64,000 bases of DNA from Dehalococcoidia bacterium (GTDB lineage: Bacteria; Chloroflexota; Dehalococcoidia; DSTF01; JALHUB01): assembly GCA_030018455.1 (NCBI GenBank), contig JASEFU010000001.1, forward strand, positions 187,545 through 251,544, in the 5' to 3' direction. This document shows positions 20,331 to 35,487 of this stretch, piece by piece (position 1 is the stretch's first letter; each line of letters opens with the position of its first letter). The notes beneath the pieces are model-generated. The model was given only the letters and a program-made list of their open reading frames with translations. It was not told the DNA's origin and searched no databases. The position numbers and the translations under genes are program-made.

Positions 20331-20445
20331 AACGCCGATATTACCTTAGAAAGGAGGGGACCCGTATAAGACAGTAGAGCGCGTGTCACGGTTGCCGTTG
20401 GCCCGGCGAAGGCAGCGCCGATTCGTGGCACAAGGATGTGCGAGC

Positions 20446-21929
20446 GTGCGACGCGCGATTGACCCCACAAAGAAGAGTCTGAGACGCTTCGTTTTGGTGG
20501 TACTGTCCCTGCTACCTCTCGTTCTTTTCGGCGAGCTTAAGCCTCTCGATCCCCCTTCAGCATTGGCGAACCACGCAAATGGCCATCTCAGCGATGGAAT
20601 AGGGTTCCAATACCTGGCTCCCAACGAGTATGGCTTTCTTCCCGTCTACGTGCACTCCGGCGTTGGCAGCATAGGCACGGACGCGGTCAACGACTGGAAC
20701 AGCAGAGGGCTTCAGTATTTGGTTCGGCACGTAACGGTGATTGCCAGTGACCCAAGCTATGCCCTCGCTGAAGTCAGATGGAAGTGGCAGCCCAGTGCGT
20801 TCGGGCAGGAGTATACCGACAAGTGCAACGAGTTCTTCAGCGACCCCAACAACGCGTGGGCCTACGCCGCGACCATGATCAAGGACAGTGGGGGGTGGTG
20901 GCGTGGGTTCGACACTTCTGGGTTCATGAACCAGCACCCGGGTTATCCATTCTATAGGGCTAGCATCTGTCTTAACTCAGACTACGCCATCATAGGGGAC
21001 ACGTGGCCCACGAGCTGGGACACGCGTTGGGGCTGGACGACGTGAACTGGAACCGAGGGCCTGGGGACATGGGGCCATGCGCTGAAACAAAGAAGGACTC
21101 CATTATGGCCTACAACTATGCGGCATGGAGCACTCAATGGCCCTCCGACTTGAAACCGACAAGGGAGGACCTGGTGGGCGCATGGGTTTGTAACTTGTCC
21201 TACCCCGCCGGGCTCGACTACGTGTACCAGTACACCACGACGCCTGGTTGGGGGAATCCCGTCAACATTGACGTCCGCGTTGGTTACATGAACGGCACTC
21301 TCAACCCCGTCCGCAACAATGGGACCGATTCGGTCAGGTATGGCATGACCATCGCGAACTTTAGCAACGTCACTGTTTACAACGTGAAGGCAGTGATACA
21401 TGCTCGGAACGGGGCGAGATACGAGGTGCGCACGGCATCGTCTCTCTCCCCTGGAGCAAGTACTTCGATGGGGTACGCCCCTTATCTTACGTACGGGGGC
21501 TGGGCCGATGGTTCAATAGACCCGGTGAACTTTGGGGGAGAATACTACATTACACCAGCAAGCAAGAGTGGCACCATCAATTACGTTACTGGAGAAGGCC
21601 TGGCGGAACGGGTGGTAACCAACCTGAGCCATACCCGGGTGCAGTTCATGGAGACGAACGTGAATCCCGTCAACCAGAACGCCCCCGTTACGTTCAGGAT
21701 ACAGGTGTGCAACGTGCTCTACGCGGGGCCTGCGAACGTCAGGCCGGTCATTTACTCTGACGGCAGGCACAACCTAAGCTGGAGCTGTCTGTCCTTCCTG
21801 CAGTGCACGCCAGTTAGAAACTACGTTGAGTACTACGGTTGGACGGGAATCGACTGGGTTGGGTTCGCAGGAGAGCGGGACGGAATGGGCCTCGTCCCGT
21901 ATCAGTATCTGTGGCAGCAGATTAGATAG
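20446..21929 (+). pseudogene. Secreted metzincin-type zinc protease, split by a frameshift
   Basis: Two overlapping frames form one protein. The first (to 21045) has a signal peptide-like hydrophobic stretch (LRRFVLVVLSLLPLVLF) and an N-terminal domain. The second (from about 21003 to 21929) has the zinc site HELGHALGLDD and, 26 residues later, SIMAY, the Met-turn of metzincins. The third ligand position is Asp, as in snapalysin-like enzymes. Adding one G to the GGGG run at 20995-20998 would join them as ...DYAIIGGHVAHELGH. GTG 20446 has AAGGA at good spacing; GTG 20383 is an alternative. The GC content is visibly lower than in the neighbours, a hint of transfer. A real mutation and an assembly error cannot be told apart here. 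Confidence 0.7.
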
Positions 21930-22928: not shown

Positions 22929-23082
22929 GGTTGGGCATGCCCGGTGTTCTGAATACGGCATCGGTGCTTTGGACTTCATGCCGGGGGCGGCAAGTCCCAG
23001 CAGCTAGCTGTTAGCGACACAGGACAGTGGCCTCGTTTGACACAGCCTCAACATCGCGATGATACTTGGTCGATCGCGTCTC

Positions 23083-23763
23083 ATGCTTATCGACCTGCAC
23101 GCCCACACGCAGCCCATCTCCTGGGACTCCGACCTCACCCCTGACGAACTGGTCGAACTGGCGAAAGCCGCCGGCCTCGACGGCGTATGCCTCACCGAGC
23201 ATGACGCCTTCTGGGATCCCGCCGACGTCGCCGCCCTCGCGCGAAAGCACAGCTTCCTTGTCCTCCCCGGCGCTGAACTGAACACGGAGATCGGACACGT
23301 CCTCGTCTACGGGCTCGACCGCTTCGAGTGGGGCATGCACCGCATCGACAAGCTGGCGGAAATGGTGGACGCCGCCAACGGCGCCATGATCGCCGCCCAT
23401 CCCTACCGTCGTTACATGCCCTGGTACTACCTCGAGGAAGACGACCTGAACGCCACCCTTCAGCGGGCGCTCAGGAACACCGCGTTCAAGCGTTGCGTCG
23501 CGCTGGAAACGGCGCACGGCCGCGCGTCACGGGAGCAGAACGACTTCTCCCGCCGCCTCTGCGACCTGCTCGGCATGCGGGGCGCCGGCGGCAGCGACGC
23601 CCATCAGCCGTCACACGTTGGGCGCTGCGCTACCCGCTTCGAGCGCCGCATCAGCGACCTGGCGGGCCTCGTCGAAGAACTGAAGGCGGGGCGCTTCGAG
23701 GCGGTGCAACTCCGCGACGACCCCTCGCAAAGCGGGCGCGCAGGCCACCCCAGGCCGCGTTAG
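23083..23763 (+). CDS. PHP-domain metal-dependent phosphoesterase
   Basis: The protein of about 226 residues has the PHP metal-site motifs in order: DLHAHT, TEHDAFWDP, PGAELNTEIGH, AAHPYRR and GGSDAH, giving the usual cluster of His, Asp and Glu ligands. Stand-alone PHP proteins hydrolyse phosphomonoesters such as histidinol phosphate, 3',5'-bisphosphonucleotides or short nucleic acid ends; the substrate is not evident. The start may be ATG 23083 or ATG 23059, and neither has a good Shine-Dalgarno. The roughly 25 C-terminal residues are low-complexity. Confidence 0.82.
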   Translation: MLIDLHAHTQPISWDSDLTPDELVELAKAAGLDGVCLTEHDAFWDPADVAALARKHSFLVLPGAELNTEIGHVLVYGLDRFEWGMHRIDKLAEMVDAANGAMIAAHPYRRYMPWYYLEEDDLNATLQRALRNTAFKRCVALETAHGRASREQNDFSRRLCDLLGMRGAGGSDAHQPSHVGRCATRFERRISDLAGLVEELKAGRFEAVQLRDDPSQSGRAGHPRPR

Positions 23764-23850: not shown

Positions 23851-24345
23851 GTGACGCAAGAATCGCTGATCACGGACGAGATGCGGGCCGTTATCGGCAA
23901 AGAGAGCGAGCCGATAACCATCGAGGTCGAAAAGCACCCCATCCGCATGTTCGCCCGTGCCGTCGGACACACCGACCTCATCTTCTACGATGAAGAGTAC
24001 GCCAAAAGCAAGGGGCACCGCAGCCTCGTCGCGCCGCCGGGGTTCGTGGGCCACGCCGTGCACCGCCCCGACAGGCCATCGGGCATCATCGGCTCTTCCG
24101 TAACCCGCGCTCCCGAGATCAGGGTGCAGTTCAAAGGCGTACTGAACGGGGGCACCGAATTCGAGTACTACGGCGAAGACATCTGCGCCGGCGACGTCCT
24201 GACCGGCAAGAGCAAGGTCATCGACATCCGCGAGCGCACAGGCGCGATGGGCAAGATGCTCATCGTCGTCTCCGAGACAAACTACACCAACCAGCAGGGC
24301 AAGCTGGTCGCCACCCAGCGCGGCACCGCCATCATGTACGTGTAG
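23851..24345 (+). CDS. MaoC-like hydratase, N-terminal-type subunit (HadA-like)
   Basis: The 164-residue protein resembles the non-catalytic 'MaoC dehydratase N' half of two-part hot-dog hydratases. It has the EVEKHPIRMFARAVG opening and the APPGF loop, and ends in TNQQGKLVATQRGT, but lacks the Asp-x4-His catalytic pair of the next gene. GTG 23851 follows GGAAGGAGG. In HadAB-type enzymes this half shapes the acyl-binding tunnel of a (R)-specific enoyl-CoA or enoyl-ACP hydratase. The adjacent catalytic subunit 11 bases downstream supports a heterodimer. Confidence 0.8.
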   Translation: MTQESLITDEMRAVIGKESEPITIEVEKHPIRMFARAVGHTDLIFYDEEYAKSKGHRSLVAPPGFVGHAVHRPDRPSGIIGSSVTRAPEIRVQFKGVLNGGTEFEYYGEDICAGDVLTGKSKVIDIRERTGAMGKMLIVVSETNYTNQQGKLVATQRGTAIMYV

Positions 24346-24356
24346 AGGAGGCAGAG

Positions 24357-24776
24357 ATGGCTCAGGTCTACTACGAAGACGTCAACGTCGGCGACGAGAT
24401 ACCGAAGCTGGTGAAGAACTGCAGCACGCAACAGCTCGTCATGTGGGCGGCCGGCTCCGGCGACTTCTACCAGATCCACTACGACAAGGATTTCGCGCTT
24501 GGCAACGGGCTCCCCGGCCTCATCGTCCACGGAGCGCTCAAGCACGCCTTCCTCGGACAGATGCTGCACGACTGGCTCGGCGACGGCGGCCGGATCAAGA
24601 AATACGGCTGCCAGTACCGCGGCATGGACTTCCCCAACCAGGACATCACCTGCCGCGGCGTCATAACTGCGAAGTCCGAAGGCGGCATCGTCGAATTGGA
24701 CATCTGGACGGAGAACCCGAACGGCGACAAGACCTCGCCGGGCAAGGCGACGGTCATCCTGCCGTCGCGCGGCTAG
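24357..24776 (+). CDS. MaoC-like hydratase, catalytic subunit (HadB-like)
   Basis: The 139-residue hot-dog protein carries the hydratase 2 catalytic motif GDFYQIHYDKDFA (Asp41 and His46) with GLIVHG following, as in (R)-specific enoyl-CoA hydratases. It should add water across a trans-2-enoyl thioester to give a (3R)-hydroxyacyl thioester, probably together with the preceding gene product. GAGGAGG precedes the ATG. The next two genes encode dehydrogenases suited to oxidising that (3R)-hydroxyacyl product. Confidence 0.85.
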   Translation: MAQVYYEDVNVGDEIPKLVKNCSTQQLVMWAAGSGDFYQIHYDKDFALGNGLPGLIVHGALKHAFLGQMLHDWLGDGGRIKKYGCQYRGMDFPNQDITCRGVITAKSEGGIVELDIWTENPNGDKTSPGKATVILPSRG

Positions 24777-24810
24777 CCGGCTGGATGGCATTCCCATCGG
24801 GAGATAGCTC

Positions 24811-25728
24811 TTGACCAAGGCTTTGGAAGGCAAGGCAGCGGTAATAACCGGTGCCGGACGGGGGATTGGCCGCGCCATCGCTCTCCTCTTCGCGAAGGAG
24901 GGGGCGCGCGTCGTCGTCAATGATGCCGGCGTCGGCCCCGACGGCGTCGGCCACGATAACGGCCCCGCCGAGACCGTCGCGGAAGAGATAAGGAGGGACG
25001 GCGGCGAAGCGGTCGCCAACTATGACTCGGTGGCGAGCATGGAGGGCGGCGAGCGCATCGTCCAGGCCGCCCTCGACGCCTTCGGCCGCATCGATATTCT
25101 CGTGAACAACGCGGGCATACTGCGTGACCGCCTCTTCGTCAACATGAGCGAGGAGGACTGGGACGCCGTCATCGCCGTCCATCTCAAGGGCACCTTCGCC
25201 TGCACGAAGGCGGCGGCCACCGCAATGCGCGGCCAGCGTTATGGCCGCATCATCAACACGTCGTCCTCGTCGGGGCTCATCGGCAACGCCGGCCAGGCAA
25301 ACTACGGCGCCGCCAAGGCGGGGATCGCCGGCTTCACGCGTGTCGCCGCCCGCGAGCTGGGACGCTTCGGCATCACCTGCAACGCCATCGCCCCCATGGC
25401 GGCGACGAGGCTCACCGAGGGGATGATCGAGCAGGCGGCGAAAATCGGCCTTATCATCCCCGAGCCGGAGTACGTCGCCCCGCTCGTCGCCTACCTCGCC
25501 AGCGACAGCGCCTGGAACGTGAACGGGCAGGTCTTCTACGTGTTCGGCGGCAGCATCTGCCTCTGCCAGCAAGCAGTGCCCTACCGCACCATCTTCAAGC
25601 AGGAGCGCTGGACGCTCGACGAGCTGGTGCAACTCGTGCCCCAGCAGTTGATGGGTGGAATCGCGAACCCTGCGCCACCGGCCGAACACCTGCGCCCCGG
25701 CGCGACAGCGACGGCGGAGGGCGGTTAG
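24811..25728 (+). CDS. Short-chain dehydrogenase, MFE-2-like (3R)-hydroxyacyl-CoA dehydrogenase
   Basis: The 305-residue SDR has the cofactor motif GAGRGIG, VNDAG (Asp suggesting NAD), NNAG, the catalytic Ser of TSSSSG about 13 residues before Tyr165, and Lys169 (YGAAK). HLKGTF replaces the usual SDR Asn and matches the dehydrogenase domain of peroxisomal multifunctional enzyme type 2. The C-terminal 60 residues extend past the SDR core. Starting at TTG 24811, it lies 34 bases after the hydratase gene. The predicted step is (3R)-hydroxyacyl-CoA to 3-ketoacyl-CoA. Confidence 0.85.
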   Translation: MTKALEGKAAVITGAGRGIGRAIALLFAKEGARVVVNDAGVGPDGVGHDNGPAETVAEEIRRDGGEAVANYDSVASMEGGERIVQAALDAFGRIDILVNNAGILRDRLFVNMSEEDWDAVIAVHLKGTFACTKAAATAMRGQRYGRIINTSSSSGLIGNAGQANYGAAKAGIAGFTRVAARELGRFGITCNAIAPMAATRLTEGMIEQAAKIGLIIPEPEYVAPLVAYLASDSAWNVNGQVFYVFGGSICLCQQAVPYRTIFKQERWTLDELVQLVPQQLMGGIANPAPPAEHLRPGATATAEGG

Positions 25729-25818
25729 AAGAGCGGCCGACAGGGGCAGGGCTCCCCGCCTGCGACGGGTAGGCGTCCCCGCCCGGAGTTATAGCGCCAT
25801 CCAAGGAGACAGAAACGA

Positions 25819-26739
25819 GTGGGAGAGCGACTTAAGGGCAGAGCGGCAGTAGTTACCGGTGCCGGCCGTGGCATCGGCAGAGCGGTCGCGCTGGCGCTGG
25901 CGGCGGAGGGCGCATCGGTCGTCGTCAACGACCTCGGCGCCGCCGTCGACGGCAGCGGCGAGAGCACGGGGCCCGCGGACAATGTCGTCGACGAGATACG
26001 GACCGCCGGCGGCAGCGCCGTCGCCAGCTTCGATAGCGTGGCCACTCCCGAAGGCGGACAAGCCATCATCCGGACGGCTCTCGACAACTATGGACGTGTC
26101 GACATCCTCGTCAACGTTGCCGGCATCCTCCGCGACCGCGCGCTGCTCAACATGACGGAAGAGGAGTGGGACGCAGTGATCGCCGTCCACCTCAAGGGCC
26201 ACTACTGCACCTGCAAGCCCGCCGCCTCTCAGATGCGGCGCCAGCGCTTCGGCCGCATTATCAACTTCTCCTCCGCTTCGGGGTTCATCGGCGCGCACGG
26301 GCAGGCGAACTTTGCGGCCGCGAAGTCGGGCATCGTCGGCCTGACGCGCGTGCTCGCCCGCGAACTGGGGCGTCACGGCATCACCTGCAACGCCATAGCT
26401 CCCGTGGCGGAGACGCGCCTGACGGCGCCCATCAGCGAAGCGGCGCGCCAGATGGGGGAAACGCCGCCCAAACTGGGCGACCCCATGCAGGTGGCGATGA
26501 TGGTCTGCTACCTGGCCACGGAAGACGCCTGGAACGTAAACGGCAAGCTTTTCTACGTGTCCGGCGGCGCCATCTCCCTCGCCTACGACGAGGACATGGG
26601 CCGAACCCTCACAAAGGACGGGATGTGGACGGTGGAGGAGCTGGCGGGCCTGCTTCCCGGACGGCTGCTTCAGGGGGTGCCGAATCCCGCGCCGCCGCCC
26701 GAGCTGGAGATACCCGGCCGTCCCACCGGCACCGCCTGA
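25819..26739 (+). CDS. MFE-2-like short-chain dehydrogenase paralogue lacking the catalytic Tyr
   Basis: This 306-residue SDR is a close relative of its neighbour, with GAGRGIG, the same HLKG segment, and the catalytic-site Ser and Lys169 at matching positions. Position 165 is Phe (codon TTT at 26311), so YGAAK reads FAAAK, and NNAG reads NVAG (Val100). Loss of the Tyr should abolish normal SDR chemistry. It is probably a structural or regulatory partner of the first SDR in a hetero-oligomer, though another activity cannot be excluded. GTG 25819 follows AAGGAGAC. Confidence 0.82.
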   Translation: MGERLKGRAAVVTGAGRGIGRAVALALAAEGASVVVNDLGAAVDGSGESTGPADNVVDEIRTAGGSAVASFDSVATPEGGQAIIRTALDNYGRVDILVNVAGILRDRALLNMTEEEWDAVIAVHLKGHYCTCKPAASQMRRQRFGRIINFSSASGFIGAHGQANFAAAKSGIVGLTRVLARELGRHGITCNAIAPVAETRLTAPISEAARQMGETPPKLGDPMQVAMMVCYLATEDAWNVNGKLFYVSGGAISLAYDEDMGRTLTKDGMWTVEELAGLLPGRLLQGVPNPAPPPELEIPGRPTGTA

Positions 26740-28919: not shown

Positions 28920-29183
28920 GTGCCTGTTCGCGCGACCCGGATCAATCCAGTAGACAACGTCGCCATCGTCACCGCCGACGTCAGCGAGGGCGAGCTTGTC
29001 CGCGTCGACGGCGGCATCGAGCTCCGCTCAACGGAGGCGGTGCCCCGCGGCGGCAAGATAGCGCTGTCGCCGATCCCCGCCGGCAAGGCTGTCCTGCGTT
29101 ATGGCGAGGAGATCGGCGTTGCCCTGACGGATATCGCCGCCGGGCAGCACGTGCACACCCATAACCTGGGCGGCGGCAAATGA
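28920..29183 (+). CDS. UxaA-family dehydratase, small SAF-domain subunit
   Basis: The 87-residue protein is a single SAF domain, the N-terminal part of altronate and galactarate dehydratases and of sulfolactate sulfo-lyase (SuyA). NPVDNVAIV, IPAGKAVLRYGEEIGVA and HVHTHNL at the end are typical. It begins with GTG and overlaps the large-subunit ATG by four bases, the usual arrangement for a split enzyme. Confidence 0.85.
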   Translation: MPVRATRINPVDNVAIVTADVSEGELVRVDGGIELRSTEAVPRGGKIALSPIPAGKAVLRYGEEIGVALTDIAAGQHVHTHNLGGGK

Positions 29184-30346
29184 GCGACGTGTTCACTTTC
29201 GAGGGCTGGCGCCGGCCCGACGGGCAGATCGGCGTGCGCAATCACTGCCTCGTGCTGGCCACCGTCGTGTGCGCCGCCGGTGTCGCGCGCGAGGTCGGGC
29301 GGCGTCTGCCCGATGTCGCCGTCGTAGAGCACCCCCACGGCTGCGGGCGCGGTCTGCCCGATATCGGCCTCCAGATCAAGACGCTCGCCGGTATCGTCAA
29401 CAACCCCAACGTCGGCGGCGCGATACTTGTCGGCCTCGGCTGCGAACCGCTTTCCGTCGATGTCCTGACGGCGGCCCTCGGCGACAACAAGAAGCCGCTC
29501 CAGGGGATCGTCATCCAGCAAGCGGGCGGCTCTCAGAAGGCGGCGGACCGGGTGGAGGCGATGGCCCGCGAGATGATGGCCGAGCTGGCGTCGATGCCGC
29601 GTGAGAAGGCTTCCCTTGCCGATCTAACGGTCGCGCTGGAGTGCGGCGGCTCCGACACCTTCTCCGGCATGACCGCAAACCCCGCCGTCGGCAGCGCCGT
29701 CGACCGCATCGTCGAGATGGGGGGCGCCGCCATCCTCTCCGAGACGACGGAGATGATAGGCGCCCTAAACCCTCTGCTGCGCCGCGCCGAAAACGACGAG
29801 ATCGCGGCCCAGGTCAAGCAGATGGTCGACCGGCAGGAAGCGGTGACCCGTCAGATGCTGGGCCCTCTCGCCGACCGCGTGCTCGCGCCCGGCAACGTGG
29901 AGTCGGGCCTCTCCACCATCGCCGAGAAGAGTCTCGGCTGCATCGCCAAGGGCGGAAGCAGTCCCATCCGCGAAGTCGTCGGTTACGCGGAGCGGCCGAC
30001 AAAGCGCGGGCTAGTCCTCATGGACACGCCCGGCTTCGACGCCGAGAGCATTACCGGCATGGCGGCGGCAGGGGCGCAGGTTGTCATCTTCACAACCGGC
30101 AGGGGGACGCCCGTCGGCTTCCCCATCGCGCCGGTGATAAAGGTCTCGTCGAATAGCGAGCTGTTCCAGGCGATGCCCGACGATATCGACGTCGACGCGG
30201 GGACGGTGCTGAGCGGAAAAACGATAGGCGAGGTCGGCGACGAGATATTGCGGCTGCTGGTGCGCGTCGCGGACGGCGAGAAGACGAAGGCGGAGACCAA
30301 CCGCCAGGAGATATTCGCCATCGCCCAGACCCACCAGGCCTTCTAA
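29180..30346 (+). CDS. UxaA-family dehydratase, large subunit
   Basis: The 388-residue protein belongs to the altronate/galactarate dehydratase and sulfolactate lyase group, which remove water or sulfite from 2-hydroxy acids using iron. The conserved Cys/His motifs HPHGCGRG (near 50), LGCEPL (near 93) and ECGGSDTFSG (near 154) are present. The substrate is uncertain: no hexuronate isomerase, KDG kinase or sulfonate genes are near. The C-terminal MDTPGFDAESITGMAAAGAQ is also family-typical. It converges on gpsA. Confidence 0.85.
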   Translation: MSDVFTFEGWRRPDGQIGVRNHCLVLATVVCAAGVAREVGRRLPDVAVVEHPHGCGRGLPDIGLQIKTLAGIVNNPNVGGAILVGLGCEPLSVDVLTAALGDNKKPLQGIVIQQAGGSQKAADRVEAMAREMMAELASMPREKASLADLTVALECGGSDTFSGMTANPAVGSAVDRIVEMGGAAILSETTEMIGALNPLLRRAENDEIAAQVKQMVDRQEAVTRQMLGPLADRVLAPGNVESGLSTIAEKSLGCIAKGGSSPIREVVGYAERPTKRGLVLMDTPGFDAESITGMAAAGAQVVIFTTGRGTPVGFPIAPVIKVSSNSELFQAMPDDIDVDAGTVLSGKTIGEVGDEILRLLVRVADGEKTKAETNRQEIFAIAQTHQAF

Positions 30347-32016: not shown

Positions 32017-33342
32017 CTAGCCCTCGCTCCGACTCTTGAACACCAGCTTGATCGGCGTGCCGGGAAAGCCGAACGCGCGCCTGAGCTGGTTCTCGATGTA
32101 ACGCTGGTAGGAGAAGTGCAGCAGGGATGCATCGTTGACGAAAAAGACGAAGGTTGGAGGCGCTCTTTCGGCCTGGGTCGCGTACAGCACCTTCAGCCTC
32201 CGGCCGCGCACCGAAGGCGGCGCCCTCTCTCCGACAGCCCGCCGCACCACGGCGTTCAGCTCGCCGGTGCTCACGCGCTTCTGCCGCTCCTCACCTGCCT
32301 TCACCGCCTCTCGCAGCAGGCCCTCGATCCCTGTCCGCTCCTTCGCGGAGACGAAGCAAACGGGCGCCCAGGGCGCAAAACGCATCCGCTGCCGCACCAG
32401 ACGCTCGAACGCCTTGCGGGTCGCGGGCGACTGGTCCATCAGGTCCCACTTATTCGCGACGAGCACCAGCCCCACAAGCGCATCGACGATGTCGCCCGCG
32501 ATGTGCGTGTCCTGCGCAGTGATCCCCTGGGGCGCGTCCATCAGCAACAGGCCCACCTCGGCTCTCTCGATTGCCCTGCGAGCGCGCAGCACCGAATGCT
32601 TTTCGACGCCCCGCTCGATGCGGCCGCGCCGCCGTATGCCCGCCGTGTCCACGAGCAGCAGCCGCTTCCCTTCGAACTCGAACACCGTATCGACCGCGTC
32701 GCGCGTGGTCCCCGGCTCTTCGCTGACGATGACACGCTCCTCCCCCAGGATAGCGTTCAGCAGCATCGACTTCCCCACGTTCGGCCGCCCGACGATAGAG
32801 ACCGCCAGGGCCGCTCCGGCTTCGGCGGCGACTTCTGAGGGCAGCATCTCAACCAGCATGTCCATCACGTCGGCGACGCCGTGCCCGTGGTGAGCGCTGA
32901 CGGGAATCGGCTCGCCGAGGCCCAGCTCGTAGAACTGGACCGCCGCCTCGCGCCGGGCCTCGCTCTCGGCCTTGTTGGCGAGAAGGAGCACCGGCTTAGC
33001 GGTACGTCGCAGCACCTCCGCGACATCAAAGTCACCGGCTGTCGGTCCGTCTCTCGCATCCACGACGAACAGCACTGCCTGCGCTTCGTCAAGCGCTGAG
33101 GCGACCTGCTCGCGTATCAGCGTTATGTAAGGTAGTGAGCCGTCGAGAAGGAGGCCACCCGTGTCGACCAGGCGAAAGCGGCGCCCCCGCCACTCGACGT
33201 CGCCGTAGAGGCGGTCGCGAGTGGTGCCCGGAAGTTCTTCGACCAGCGCCTTGCGGCCGCGCAGCATCCTGTTGAAAAGGGCGGACTTGCCGACGTTGGG
33301 CCGGCCCACAAGGGCGACTACGGGAGGGCCGGGAGAAGCCAA
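32017..33342 (-). CDS. der: Ribosome-assembly GTPase Der (EngA)
   Basis: The 441-residue protein has two GTPase domains in tandem followed by a KH-like C-terminal domain, needed for 50S subunit maturation. The G1 motif GRPNVGKS occurs near 13 and again near 187, each with PGTTRD, D-T-G/D-T-A and NKxE/NKWD. The start is TTG 33342 with AGAGGGA upstream. Placement between cdaR and plsY is typical of some Firmicutes and Chloroflexota operons. Confidence 0.95.
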   Translation of the reverse strand: MASPGPPVVALVGRPNVGKSALFNRMLRGRKALVEELPGTTRDRLYGDVEWRGRRFRLVDTGGLLLDGSLPYITLIREQVASALDEAQAVLFVVDARDGPTAGDFDVAEVLRRTAKPVLLLANKAESEARREAAVQFYELGLGEPIPVSAHHGHGVADVMDMLVEMLPSEVAAEAGAALAVSIVGRPNVGKSMLLNAILGEERVIVSEEPGTTRDAVDTVFEFEGKRLLLVDTAGIRRRGRIERGVEKHSVLRARRAIERAEVGLLLMDAPQGITAQDTHIAGDIVDALVGLVLVANKWDLMDQSPATRKAFERLVRQRMRFAPWAPVCFVSAKERTGIEGLLREAVKAGEERQKRVSTGELNAVVRRAVGERAPPSVRGRRLKVLYATQAERAPPTFVFFVNDASLLHFSYQRYIENQLRRAFGFPGTPIKLVFKSRSEG

Positions 33343-33367
33343 GATAGTCCCTCTTCTTCGCGGTCTG

Positions 33368-34612
33368 CTAGGGCCGCTGAACGGCCACCAGGACCTCGGC
33401 AGGGTCCACTTTCACCAGTTGCGTTCCTGCCGGAACCTGAATAGTGGGGGCGAATCTGTAGGCGGCGGAAGGAAGGTTGGAGACATCGACGGAGGCCGTG
33501 ACGCTGCCCGGTGAAAGCGATTGCAGCAGAGGCATATCACCCCTTAGAGTGACAAGCACTGTCGGCGGATTCAATTCCACCCTTGAGCCCGATTGAGCGC
33601 CGTTGACCGTGACAGCGACGCTCAACGCCGTTTCCCCTGGCGCGGGCGCGACCGTCACCCGCACGACCACCTCGTCGCCGCCGACGGCGCGCGCTCCTTC
33701 CGGGAGCCGAAGCTTCACACTGCGCACTACGTCGGACTCGGCGCCATCGACACTTATGTCTTCCGTCGTCAGGACATCTATCGATTGCAGCACTTCAACT
33801 GAGGCAGTCACCTGCACAAAGGGACGATCGATTTCCACCTTTACGGCGCGATAGCCCGCGGCAACGTTCCCGGATATCTGCGGATTCACTATGAAGGTGA
33901 CGGTGAACTCATTCTGAACGATTTCCAGGCTGACGCGCGCCATGCCGGGATCGAGAGTTACGCCCTCAATCTCTCCCCCTTCCGAGTCGCGAGCGGTCAG
34001 GGCAAAGTCCTGGTCTAGACTGACGCGTATTCCCGTCAAGTTGACATCCGCTTCGGCCGCCGCCACCCTCTCAACGAGACTGGCGGGCCCCGAAACCTCG
34101 ACTTCTTCCGGCGAGAAGCGGGTAGAGGCGAGAGCGTAGCCCAGGGGTGTGGCGCCGACCGGCTTGACCTTTACGGGGACAGTGCTCGTCATGATAGGCT
34201 CGAGGTTAACGGTCACGCGGGCGGGCTCGATGGTCTCTATCTTGACGTTGCCGCGTTTCACGTTGACGCGGACGGGCACACTCGCCTCCCTTTGCTTTAT
34301 GCCGGAGAGATCGGCCACTGCTTCGAAATCATCGACCGAAAGCTTGTCCCAGACGTCCTTGTCGGCTGTGATCCTGACGCTGACGTTCGATGGGTCAGAT
34401 ATCTTGGACACCGCCAGTCCCTCGGGGACGTTGACAGTTTGGACGGAGATCGGGCTGGGGAAGTAGTCGGTGCGCGACTCGCTTTCGACATCGATGACGA
34501 AGAACCAGATGGTCACGGCGAGGGCCAAAGACAGGAGCCCCAGCGTCACGTTGCCGGCGATTACCGATGCCCCTTCGCGGAGAACGCTCAGGAGATTGCC
34601 GAGGATGCGCAC
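33368..34612 (-). CDS. cdaR: YbbR-domain protein, CdaA regulator
   Basis: The 414-residue protein has one N-terminal transmembrane helix (about 20-42) and four YbbR-like beta domains outside the membrane. Repeated VTV, VSG and VPV strands with GYALASTRFSPEEVEVSGP near 155-175 mark the repeats. CdaR proteins bind CdaA and tune c-di-AMP synthesis. It starts with GTG 34612, 74 bases after cdaA, beyond a hairpin in the gap. Confidence 0.85.
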   Translation of the reverse strand: MRILGNLLSVLREGASVIAGNVTLGLLSLALAVTIWFFVIDVESESRTDYFPSPISVQTVNVPEGLAVSKISDPSNVSVRITADKDVWDKLSVDDFEAVADLSGIKQREASVPVRVNVKRGNVKIETIEPARVTVNLEPIMTSTVPVKVKPVGATPLGYALASTRFSPEEVEVSGPASLVERVAAAEADVNLTGIRVSLDQDFALTARDSEGGEIEGVTLDPGMARVSLEIVQNEFTVTFIVNPQISGNVAAGYRAVKVEIDRPFVQVTASVEVLQSIDVLTTEDISVDGAESDVVRSVKLRLPEGARAVGGDEVVVRVTVAPAPGETALSVAVTVNGAQSGSRVELNPPTVLVTLRGDMPLLQSLSPGSVTASVDVSNLPSAAYRFAPTIQVPAGTQLVKVDPAEVLVAVQRP

Positions 34613-34637
34613 TGTATCCGCCTCTAACTTCTGTTCT

Positions 34638-34677
34638 GGCGCCGCGTCGTCGCGTCGAAACCGCCGGCGGCGGCGCC
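34638..34677 (-). other. Hairpin in the cdaA-cdaR gap
   Basis: An 8-base stem (34638-34645 with 34670-34677) encloses a second small palindrome CCGCCGGCGG. It has no T tract. It may stabilise the mRNA end of cdaA or reduce read-through into cdaR. Confidence 0.4.
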
Positions 34678-34686
34678 TGACTTCAC

Positions 34687-35487
34687 TTACCGATTCTTCG
34701 GTGTCAATCCCAGTATACTGATCAGGCTCGCCCTGAGCCTTCCTTCGTCCAGACGGTGGAGCATACGGCCGTCGGACGCGAGGCAGATCTGTCCCGTCTC
34801 TTCCGAGACGACCACGGAAATGGCGTCCGTCCGCTCGGTGATCCCGAGCGCCGCGCGATGCCGGGTGCCCATTTGCCCGTGGCGCGCGTCCTCCGCCAGG
34901 GGGAGTGTGCAGGCGGCGGCGATGACGCGGTTTTCGCGCAGGATCACGGCGCCGTCATGAAGGGGAGAGTTGGGATAGAAAATGCCCTCGAGGAGCTCCG
35001 CTGAAGGAGCCGCATCAACGCGGACGCCGGTATCAATGTAGTCCTGAAGACCCGTCTCGCGCTCGAGGACCAACAGAGCGCCGTGTCGCCGTTCGGCGAG
35101 ATTGCCGGCGGCCTGGGTAAGGGCGTCGATAACCGCCTCGTAGCTGGGCCGGCCTATCCAGGCGCGCCTGCCTGCACGGCCGAGCCGCTCCAGGGCGCGT
35201 CGCAGCTCGGGCTGAAAGACGATGGGGACAGCGATTGCCAGCCCGACGAGCGAGTTGCGGAGCAGGAAGTTGAGAACACGCAGATCGAGGGCGCGCCCGA
35301 TGACAAAGGCGCCAATGAGAACGATCGCACTGCCGCGGAGGACAGCCATCGCGGTGGTGCCGCGCAGCAGCAGGAGCACCCAGAAGATGAACGCGGCTAT
35401 CAGGAGGATGTCGATGACGCTCCTCGCGTCGAGCCGTCCCAGGTTTTCCCCGATTGAGTCAAGCAGTTCTTCCAAACGGAGCCTCAC
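34687..35487 (-). CDS. cdaA: Diadenylate cyclase (c-di-AMP synthase)
   Basis: The 266-residue membrane enzyme joins two ATP into c-di-AMP, a regulator of potassium, osmolyte and cell-wall balance. Three N-terminal helices (about 25-92) precede the DAC domain, which has GALLVLER, the catalytic DGA at 178-180 (SPLHDGAVIL) and RHR at 209-211 (GTRHRAALG). GTG 35487 overlaps the argF stop (GTGA). Confidence 0.93.
   Translation of the reverse strand: MRLRLEELLDSIGENLGRLDARSVIDILLIAAFIFWVLLLLRGTTAMAVLRGSAIVLIGAFVIGRALDLRVLNFLLRNSLVGLAIAVPIVFQPELRRALERLGRAGRRAWIGRPSYEAVIDALTQAAGNLAERRHGALLVLERETGLQDYIDTGVRVDAAPSAELLEGIFYPNSPLHDGAVILRENRVIAAACTLPLAEDARHGQMGTRHRAALGITERTDAISVVVSEETGQICLASDGRMLHRLDEGRLRASLISILGLTPKNR

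Follow-up and report, generated by a model that had tools for sequence, protein, structure and literature searches.

An old arrangement of paired SDR genes behind a two-subunit MaoC hydratase is widespread in the class Dehalococcoidia, and one family of this class has lost the catalytic Tyr of the second SDR. The arrangement was found in the window, the whole stretch of 64,000 nucleotides that was analysed, as an operon at positions 23851-26739 with four co-directional plus-strand genes, which encode HadA-like and HadB-like hydratase subunits followed by two MFE-2-like SDRs (Table 1). The explanation that we favour, with some reservation, is that SDR1 and SDR2 form a heteromer and that SDR2 of this family, which may still hold NAD, serves as a non-catalytic support for SDR1. 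The paired arrangement itself is the more interesting part of the observation; the lost Tyr taken alone is a single lineage-specific event within a paired-SDR operon.

Table 1. Operon genes, the adjoining upstream gene and two altered sites of SDR2 (positions in the window)
Feature	Position	Strand	Details
PHP-domain protein	23059..23763	+	directly 5' of MaoC A; Pfam PF02811 and PF13263
MaoC A, HadA-like hot-dog subunit (FAS1_DH_region)	23851..24345	+	GTG start behind AGGAGG; Pfam E 9.3e-33
MaoC B, HadB/ChsH1-like hydratase subunit	24357..24776	+	Pfam PF01575; catalytic Asp and His (GSGDFYQIHYD)
SDR1, MFE-2-like (3R)-hydroxyacyl-CoA dehydrogenase (predicted)	24811..25728	+	TTG start; best PDB relative 2et6, E 1.4e-107
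SDR2, SDR1 paralogue, likely pseudo-subunit	25819..26739	+	GTG start behind AAGGAG; best PDB relative 2et6, E 8.8e-99
NVAG motif of SDR2, residues 99-102	26113..26124	+	sequence
Phe165 codon TTT of SDR2	26311..26313	+	sequence; the G001 codon is TTC

The first two genes of the operon are adjacent and encode hot-dog proteins of the HadA and HadB type, the second with the Asp and His expected of a two-subunit MaoC hydratase. MaoC A resembled FAS1_DH_region/HadA (NCBIfam E 1.8e-13, under the curated cut-off; HadA structures E 1.8e-4) and MaoC B resembled MaoC/HadB (NCBIfam E 1.5e-14, under the cut-off; HadB 5zy8 E 4.5e-11 and ChsH1 4wnb E 1.5e-6). As the NCBIfam HadA and HadB scores stayed under their cut-offs, the two proteins are not HadA and HadB proper. 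The active-site motif of MaoC B is retained in nearly all of its relatives.

Three other loci of the window were recorded. Two overlapping plus-strand ORFs in different frames lie at 20383-21045 and 21003-21929; the second starts with MAHELGHALGLDD, an HExxH motif like that of zinc metalloproteases. The first resembles the secreted N-terminal part of the product of the second, and a frameshift is possible. A Pfam search matched neither ORF to a family. A two-gene UxaA-like dehydratase, made of an 87-residue SAF-domain protein and a 388-residue GD_AH protein, is encoded at 28920-30346. The minus-strand row at 32020-35487 (EngA-like GTPase, YbbR-domain protein and CdaA-like diadenylate cyclase) is ordinary.

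SDR1 and SDR2 are 59-60% identical and both carry the cofactor motif TGxxxGxG in the form TGAGRGIG. SDR1 possesses the full catalytic set of NNAG (99-102), Ser152, Tyr165 and Lys169, whereas SDR2 contains NVAG at 99-102 and Phe165 next to the retained Ser152 and Lys169. Judged from these residues, SDR1 agrees with the Ser-Tyr-Lys pattern of MFE-2-like classical SDRs, and SDR2 is a homologue and not an active member of this group. The NNAG motif, present in SDR1 and absent from SDR2, is a weaker guide, since many Tyr-bearing relatives deviate from it as well; its change to NVAG may weaken NAD binding by SDR2. Both proteins were nearest to the NCBIfam family NF005861/PRK07791, at scores under its cut-off, and for both the structure matches were led by 2et6, 3qlj, 1gz6 and 1zbq, which places them among the kin of the MFE-2 dehydrogenases. 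A single-protein model of SDR2 (pLDDT 78, pTM 0.85) recovered the SDR fold and the same relatives. All sequence details of a preliminary description of this DNA, namely the four co-directional genes and the altered and intact motifs of SDR2, were thus confirmed, and its interpretation as a split MFE-2-like module of hydratase and dehydrogenase was supported by the gene families and the nearest structures. A short substrate loop was also considered as proof of inactivity and was rejected; it measures 20-21 residues in the Phe copies and 34-41 in the Tyr orthologues, but only 18 in the presumably active SDR1.

The distribution of Phe165 is narrow. Tyr occupies this site in 151 of the 153 related SDRs with a readable position, drawn from the window's class and from other phyla; all nine SDR2 orthologues from other families of the order are among the 151. 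The nearest relative of SDR2, from the only other genome of the same family that was compared (G001), is 72% identical and also has Phe165. The codon is TTT in the window and TTC in G001, and a base-calling slip, a sequencing error or chance as the source of Phe165 could be discarded because two genera carry it with different Phe codons. A DNA-pattern scan for the Phe version across 393 genomes of the class yielded this locus in the two genomes of the family only; further pattern matches in G218, G276 and G203 were judged by their translations (QWNFGSSK, QSNFSTSK and one with a stop) to be due to chance. In a phylogenetic tree, SDR2 grouped with ten second copies of the same order in one clade of 11 (SH-aLRT 98), within which the two Phe copies were a single branch nested among nine Tyr copies. 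This topology indicates that the exchange of Tyr for Phe occurred once, on the stem of the family, and Phe165 is accordingly a derived and recent state of this family as represented by two genomes.

The preliminary description had asked whether Phe165 is fixed in the second copy of such pairs and had named orthologues bearing Tyr at this site as a refutation. Such orthologues do exist. The Tyr found in the order-level orthologues and in nearly all relatives removes Phe165 as a hallmark of the second copy, while the loss of the proton donor from this family's own SDR2 stands. NVAG is present in each of the nine Tyr-bearing orthologues and is therefore older than Phe165, so that the two changes had separate origins. 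Nor does an altered NxAG motif mark exactly one copy of each pair, as both copies are altered in G011, G047 and G046 and neither is in G050; in G053, G040 and G044 it is the first SDR that carries the alteration.

The loss of Tyr165 took place in a gene that is still under selection. A Nei-Gojobori (NG86) comparison of the window's genus with G001 gave a dN of 0.215 and a dS of 0.894 for SDR2 and of 0.203 and 0.811 for SDR1, a rough estimate given the high dS, and the resulting dN/dS of SDR2 (approximately 0.24) equals that of SDR1. As SDR2 evolves as slowly as its partner (dN 0.21 versus 0.20), it does not behave as a decaying gene. Conservation within the class reaches 90% or more at 78 positions; SDR2 of the window retains 74 of these and lacks Met108, Tyr165, Tyr186 and Pro227; the copy of G001 has lost the same four and four more, and among the nine Tyr orthologues eight deviate at none of the positions and one at a single position. 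Going by these substitutions, the constraint on SDR2 has shifted, at the active site among other places. One could regard SDR2 as a redundant duplicate in early decay, with Phe165 as a nearly neutral step towards gene loss, and this would agree with the restriction of Phe to one family, with the additional conserved positions lost and with a third MFE-2-like SDR in the window's genome (G000:C1:462239-463147), which has NNAG and Tyr, is 53% identical to SDR2 and has no adjoining MaoC genes. However, the reading frame has stayed open in both genera at 72% identity, the constraint on both SDRs is the same, most class-conserved positions are kept in the window's copy, and G001 lacks the third paralogue and possesses the pair alone. 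Decay is hence considered improbable.

The search for tandem SDR pairs beside MaoC pairs, which the preliminary description had suggested, was productive. Eighteen genomes, which represent about a dozen families of the class, have MaoA-MaoB genes (MaoC A and B) followed by at least two SDRs or a fused pair, with several further pairs located at contig ends. The recurrence of this gene set in many families of the class argues for an arrangement beyond chance. In complete or partial form, the class-wide module reads (DUF35-thiolase)-PHP-MaoA-MaoB-SDR1-SDR2. The PHP gene precedes MaoA in the window, G001, G050 and G038 and is, owing to this conserved order, probably part of the block; behind the SDRs, a GNAT gene in the opposite direction follows in these four and in many other genomes. 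A DUF35 protein and a thiolase are encoded directly in front of the block in G050 and G038, and the DUF35-thiolase genes adjoin alone in G049/C8 of G050. In the window's genome the locus lacks a thiolase gene, but ten thiolases of that family scored over threshold at other sites, where seven DUF35 proteins are encoded as well. G038, G043 and G034 show a single SDR, so that a second copy is not obligatory throughout the class. No operon of this kind was found described for Dehalococcoidia or SAR202 in the open-licence papers that were searched, in keeping with what had been assumed. The arrangement turned out to be widespread and not singular.

Two variants of the hydratase and dehydrogenase sets were observed. 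Six loci of one family of the order (f3; L052, L053, L055, L056, L057 and L058) have two successive MaoA-MaoB pairs in front of the SDR pair, and the second B subunit reads GSGDFNPLHFD in place of GSGDFYQIHYD, a difference in motif that suggests a second substrate range. G035 and G045 have three successive MFE-2-like SDR genes behind MaoA-MaoB (L063 4851-7868 and L065 2136-5112).

At three loci, the two SDRs are fused into one ORF of approximately 600 residues behind MaoA-MaoB (L162 5086-6900, L100 5089-6903 and L077 6809-8602, the last on the minus strand). Ser, Tyr and Lys are present in both halves of these proteins, and TAAG, TVAG or TPAG replaces NNAG. By sequence, the closest solved relative of the fused protein is the yeast MFE-2 dehydrogenase 2et6, which matches it over both halves. 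The predicted structure matched 2et6 over its full length (TM 0.67/0.70, compared with approximately 0.38 for single SDRs), and with a modest pTM of 0.68 the packing of the domains in the fused model is suggestive only. The agreement of these fusions with the paired domains of yeast MFE-2 supports a physical pairing of SDR1 and SDR2. Together with the conserved tandem order and the equal constraint on both genes, it makes the two SDRs probably a working pair, as had been proposed for the window. Several observations count against this explanation: the fusions belong to lineages that are separate from the window's clade and carry Tyr in both halves, and the class also includes loci with a single SDR. 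SDR2 is moreover separated from SDR1 by 90 bp, so that strict co-translation is not implied.

Two further rival explanations bear on SDR2. It could be a separate homomer that does not bind SDR1 and that exchanged its dehydrogenase activity for a new role, for example in sensing or binding NAD(H) or acyl-CoA. The retention of the Rossmann motif, Ser and Lys despite the loss of Tyr, the constraint equal to that of SDR1 and the ribosome site 90 bp behind SDR1 would all suit such a role; but the tandem order is conserved, such pairs occur as natural fusions and SDR2 has no extra domain, which leaves this rival unlikely. SDR2 could also have stayed catalytically active, as a dehydrogenase or as some other acyl-CoA enzyme, with Ser152, Lys169, water or a newly acquired residue like Tyr256 in the acid-base role. 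Ser and Lys are kept, and Tyr256, Cys132 and Glu198 are common to both Phe copies and each found in only 2-3 of the 151 Tyr-bearing relatives. Against this, Tyr165 is near-universal among the relatives, Tyr-to-Phe mutants of classical SDRs generally lose most of their activity, and the model of SDR2 is least sure at residues 258-260, which bears on the placement of Tyr256. We therefore give this alternative a small chance.

Under the favoured heteromer, the operon would encode an MFE-2-type beta-oxidation unit divided among separate proteins. Its HadA/HadB-like subunits would together hydrate trans-2-enoyl-CoA to (3R)-hydroxyacyl-CoA, which the SDR pair would oxidise with NAD+ to 3-oxoacyl-CoA, and a DUF35-linked thiolase, whose gene adjoins the operon in some relatives and lies elsewhere in the window's genome, would finish the cycle. 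As the enzymes are of the hydratase 2 and (3R)-hydroxyacyl-CoA dehydrogenase types, the two middle steps of beta-oxidation by the (3R) route are the most likely function of the module; the neighbouring thiolases and the kinship with MFE-2 suggest that it works in breakdown and not in synthesis. SDR1 and SDR2 would be joined in one dimer or tetramer, comparable to domains A and B of the yeast MFE-2 dehydrogenase, and both subunits would ancestrally have had Ser-Tyr-Lys. In this family, SDR2 appears to have lost Tyr together with Met108, Tyr186 and Pro227 while retaining the Rossmann motif, Ser and Lys, and it would now probably be a structural or regulatory subunit, perhaps NAD-binding, with the chemistry performed by SDR1.

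A more far-reaching proposal, which is put forward only tentatively, is that the class harbours an undescribed operon type with an obligate MFE-2-like SDR heteromer, of which all stages are preserved: both copies complete, the second with an altered NxAG motif, the two fused and, within a single family, a second copy that has become an NAD-binding pseudoenzyme required by the active subunit. If the heteromer is real, one conserved operon would offer a natural series that starts with both subunits complete and ends with one of them a pseudoenzyme. Since close orthologues represent the states before and after the change, it would be testable how an SDR heteromer first tolerates and then fixes the loss of an active site. 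It would also point to a beta-oxidation module that is common in an uncultured class.

Among known systems, the nearest solved relatives of both SDRs are the MFE-2 dehydrogenases of yeast (2et6) and animals (MFE-2/17beta-HSD4; 1gz6, 1zbq and 3oml). Hydratase 2 activity belongs to the same system, and yeast MFE-2 likewise joins two SDR domains, both of which are matched by the three fusions. The operon differs from MFE-2 in its four separate genes and in a hydratase composed of two single hot-dog subunits; in addition, both yeast domains have Tyr in the alignment whereas one subunit has Phe here. HadAB and ChsH1-ChsH2 share the two-subunit MaoC hydratase of the HadA/HadB kind, and ChsB1 (7lg9) is a relative of both SDRs. 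HadAB, however, acts on ACP substrates in mycolate synthesis, and the DUF35 part of ChsH2 corresponds to a separate gene beside the thiolase in relatives of this operon. Malonyl-CoA reductase of Chloroflexota contains paired SDR domains, one catalytic and one auxiliary, its SDR2 and SDR4 being the auxiliary ones (PMC10470521), but it is an extended, fused protein with another reaction and 16-19% sequence similarity. The arrangement is also reminiscent of BbsCD from anaerobic toluene degradation (PDB 7pcs), which the title of its report (von Horsten et al., FEBS J. 289:1023, cited in PMC10818641) describes as a heterotetramer that contains inactive pseudoenzyme subunits. Two side-by-side SDR genes encode one 3-hydroxyacyl-CoA dehydrogenase in that system; in the window, too, one of the two genes is without a full active site. 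The BbsCD genes furthermore adjoin a thiolase with a Zn-finger subunit (BbsAB), which is comparable to the thiolase context in G050 and G038. BbsD is a distant relative of SDR2 (E 2e-40, against 8.8e-99 for 2et6), MFE-2 and ChsB1 structures being much closer, and BbsC was absent from the best 60 structure matches of SDR2, and the likeness is therefore a parallel of arrangement and not shared descent as a pair. The pairing of an active with an inactive SDR thus has precedents in malonyl-CoA reductase and, as far as the title of its report indicates, in BbsCD.
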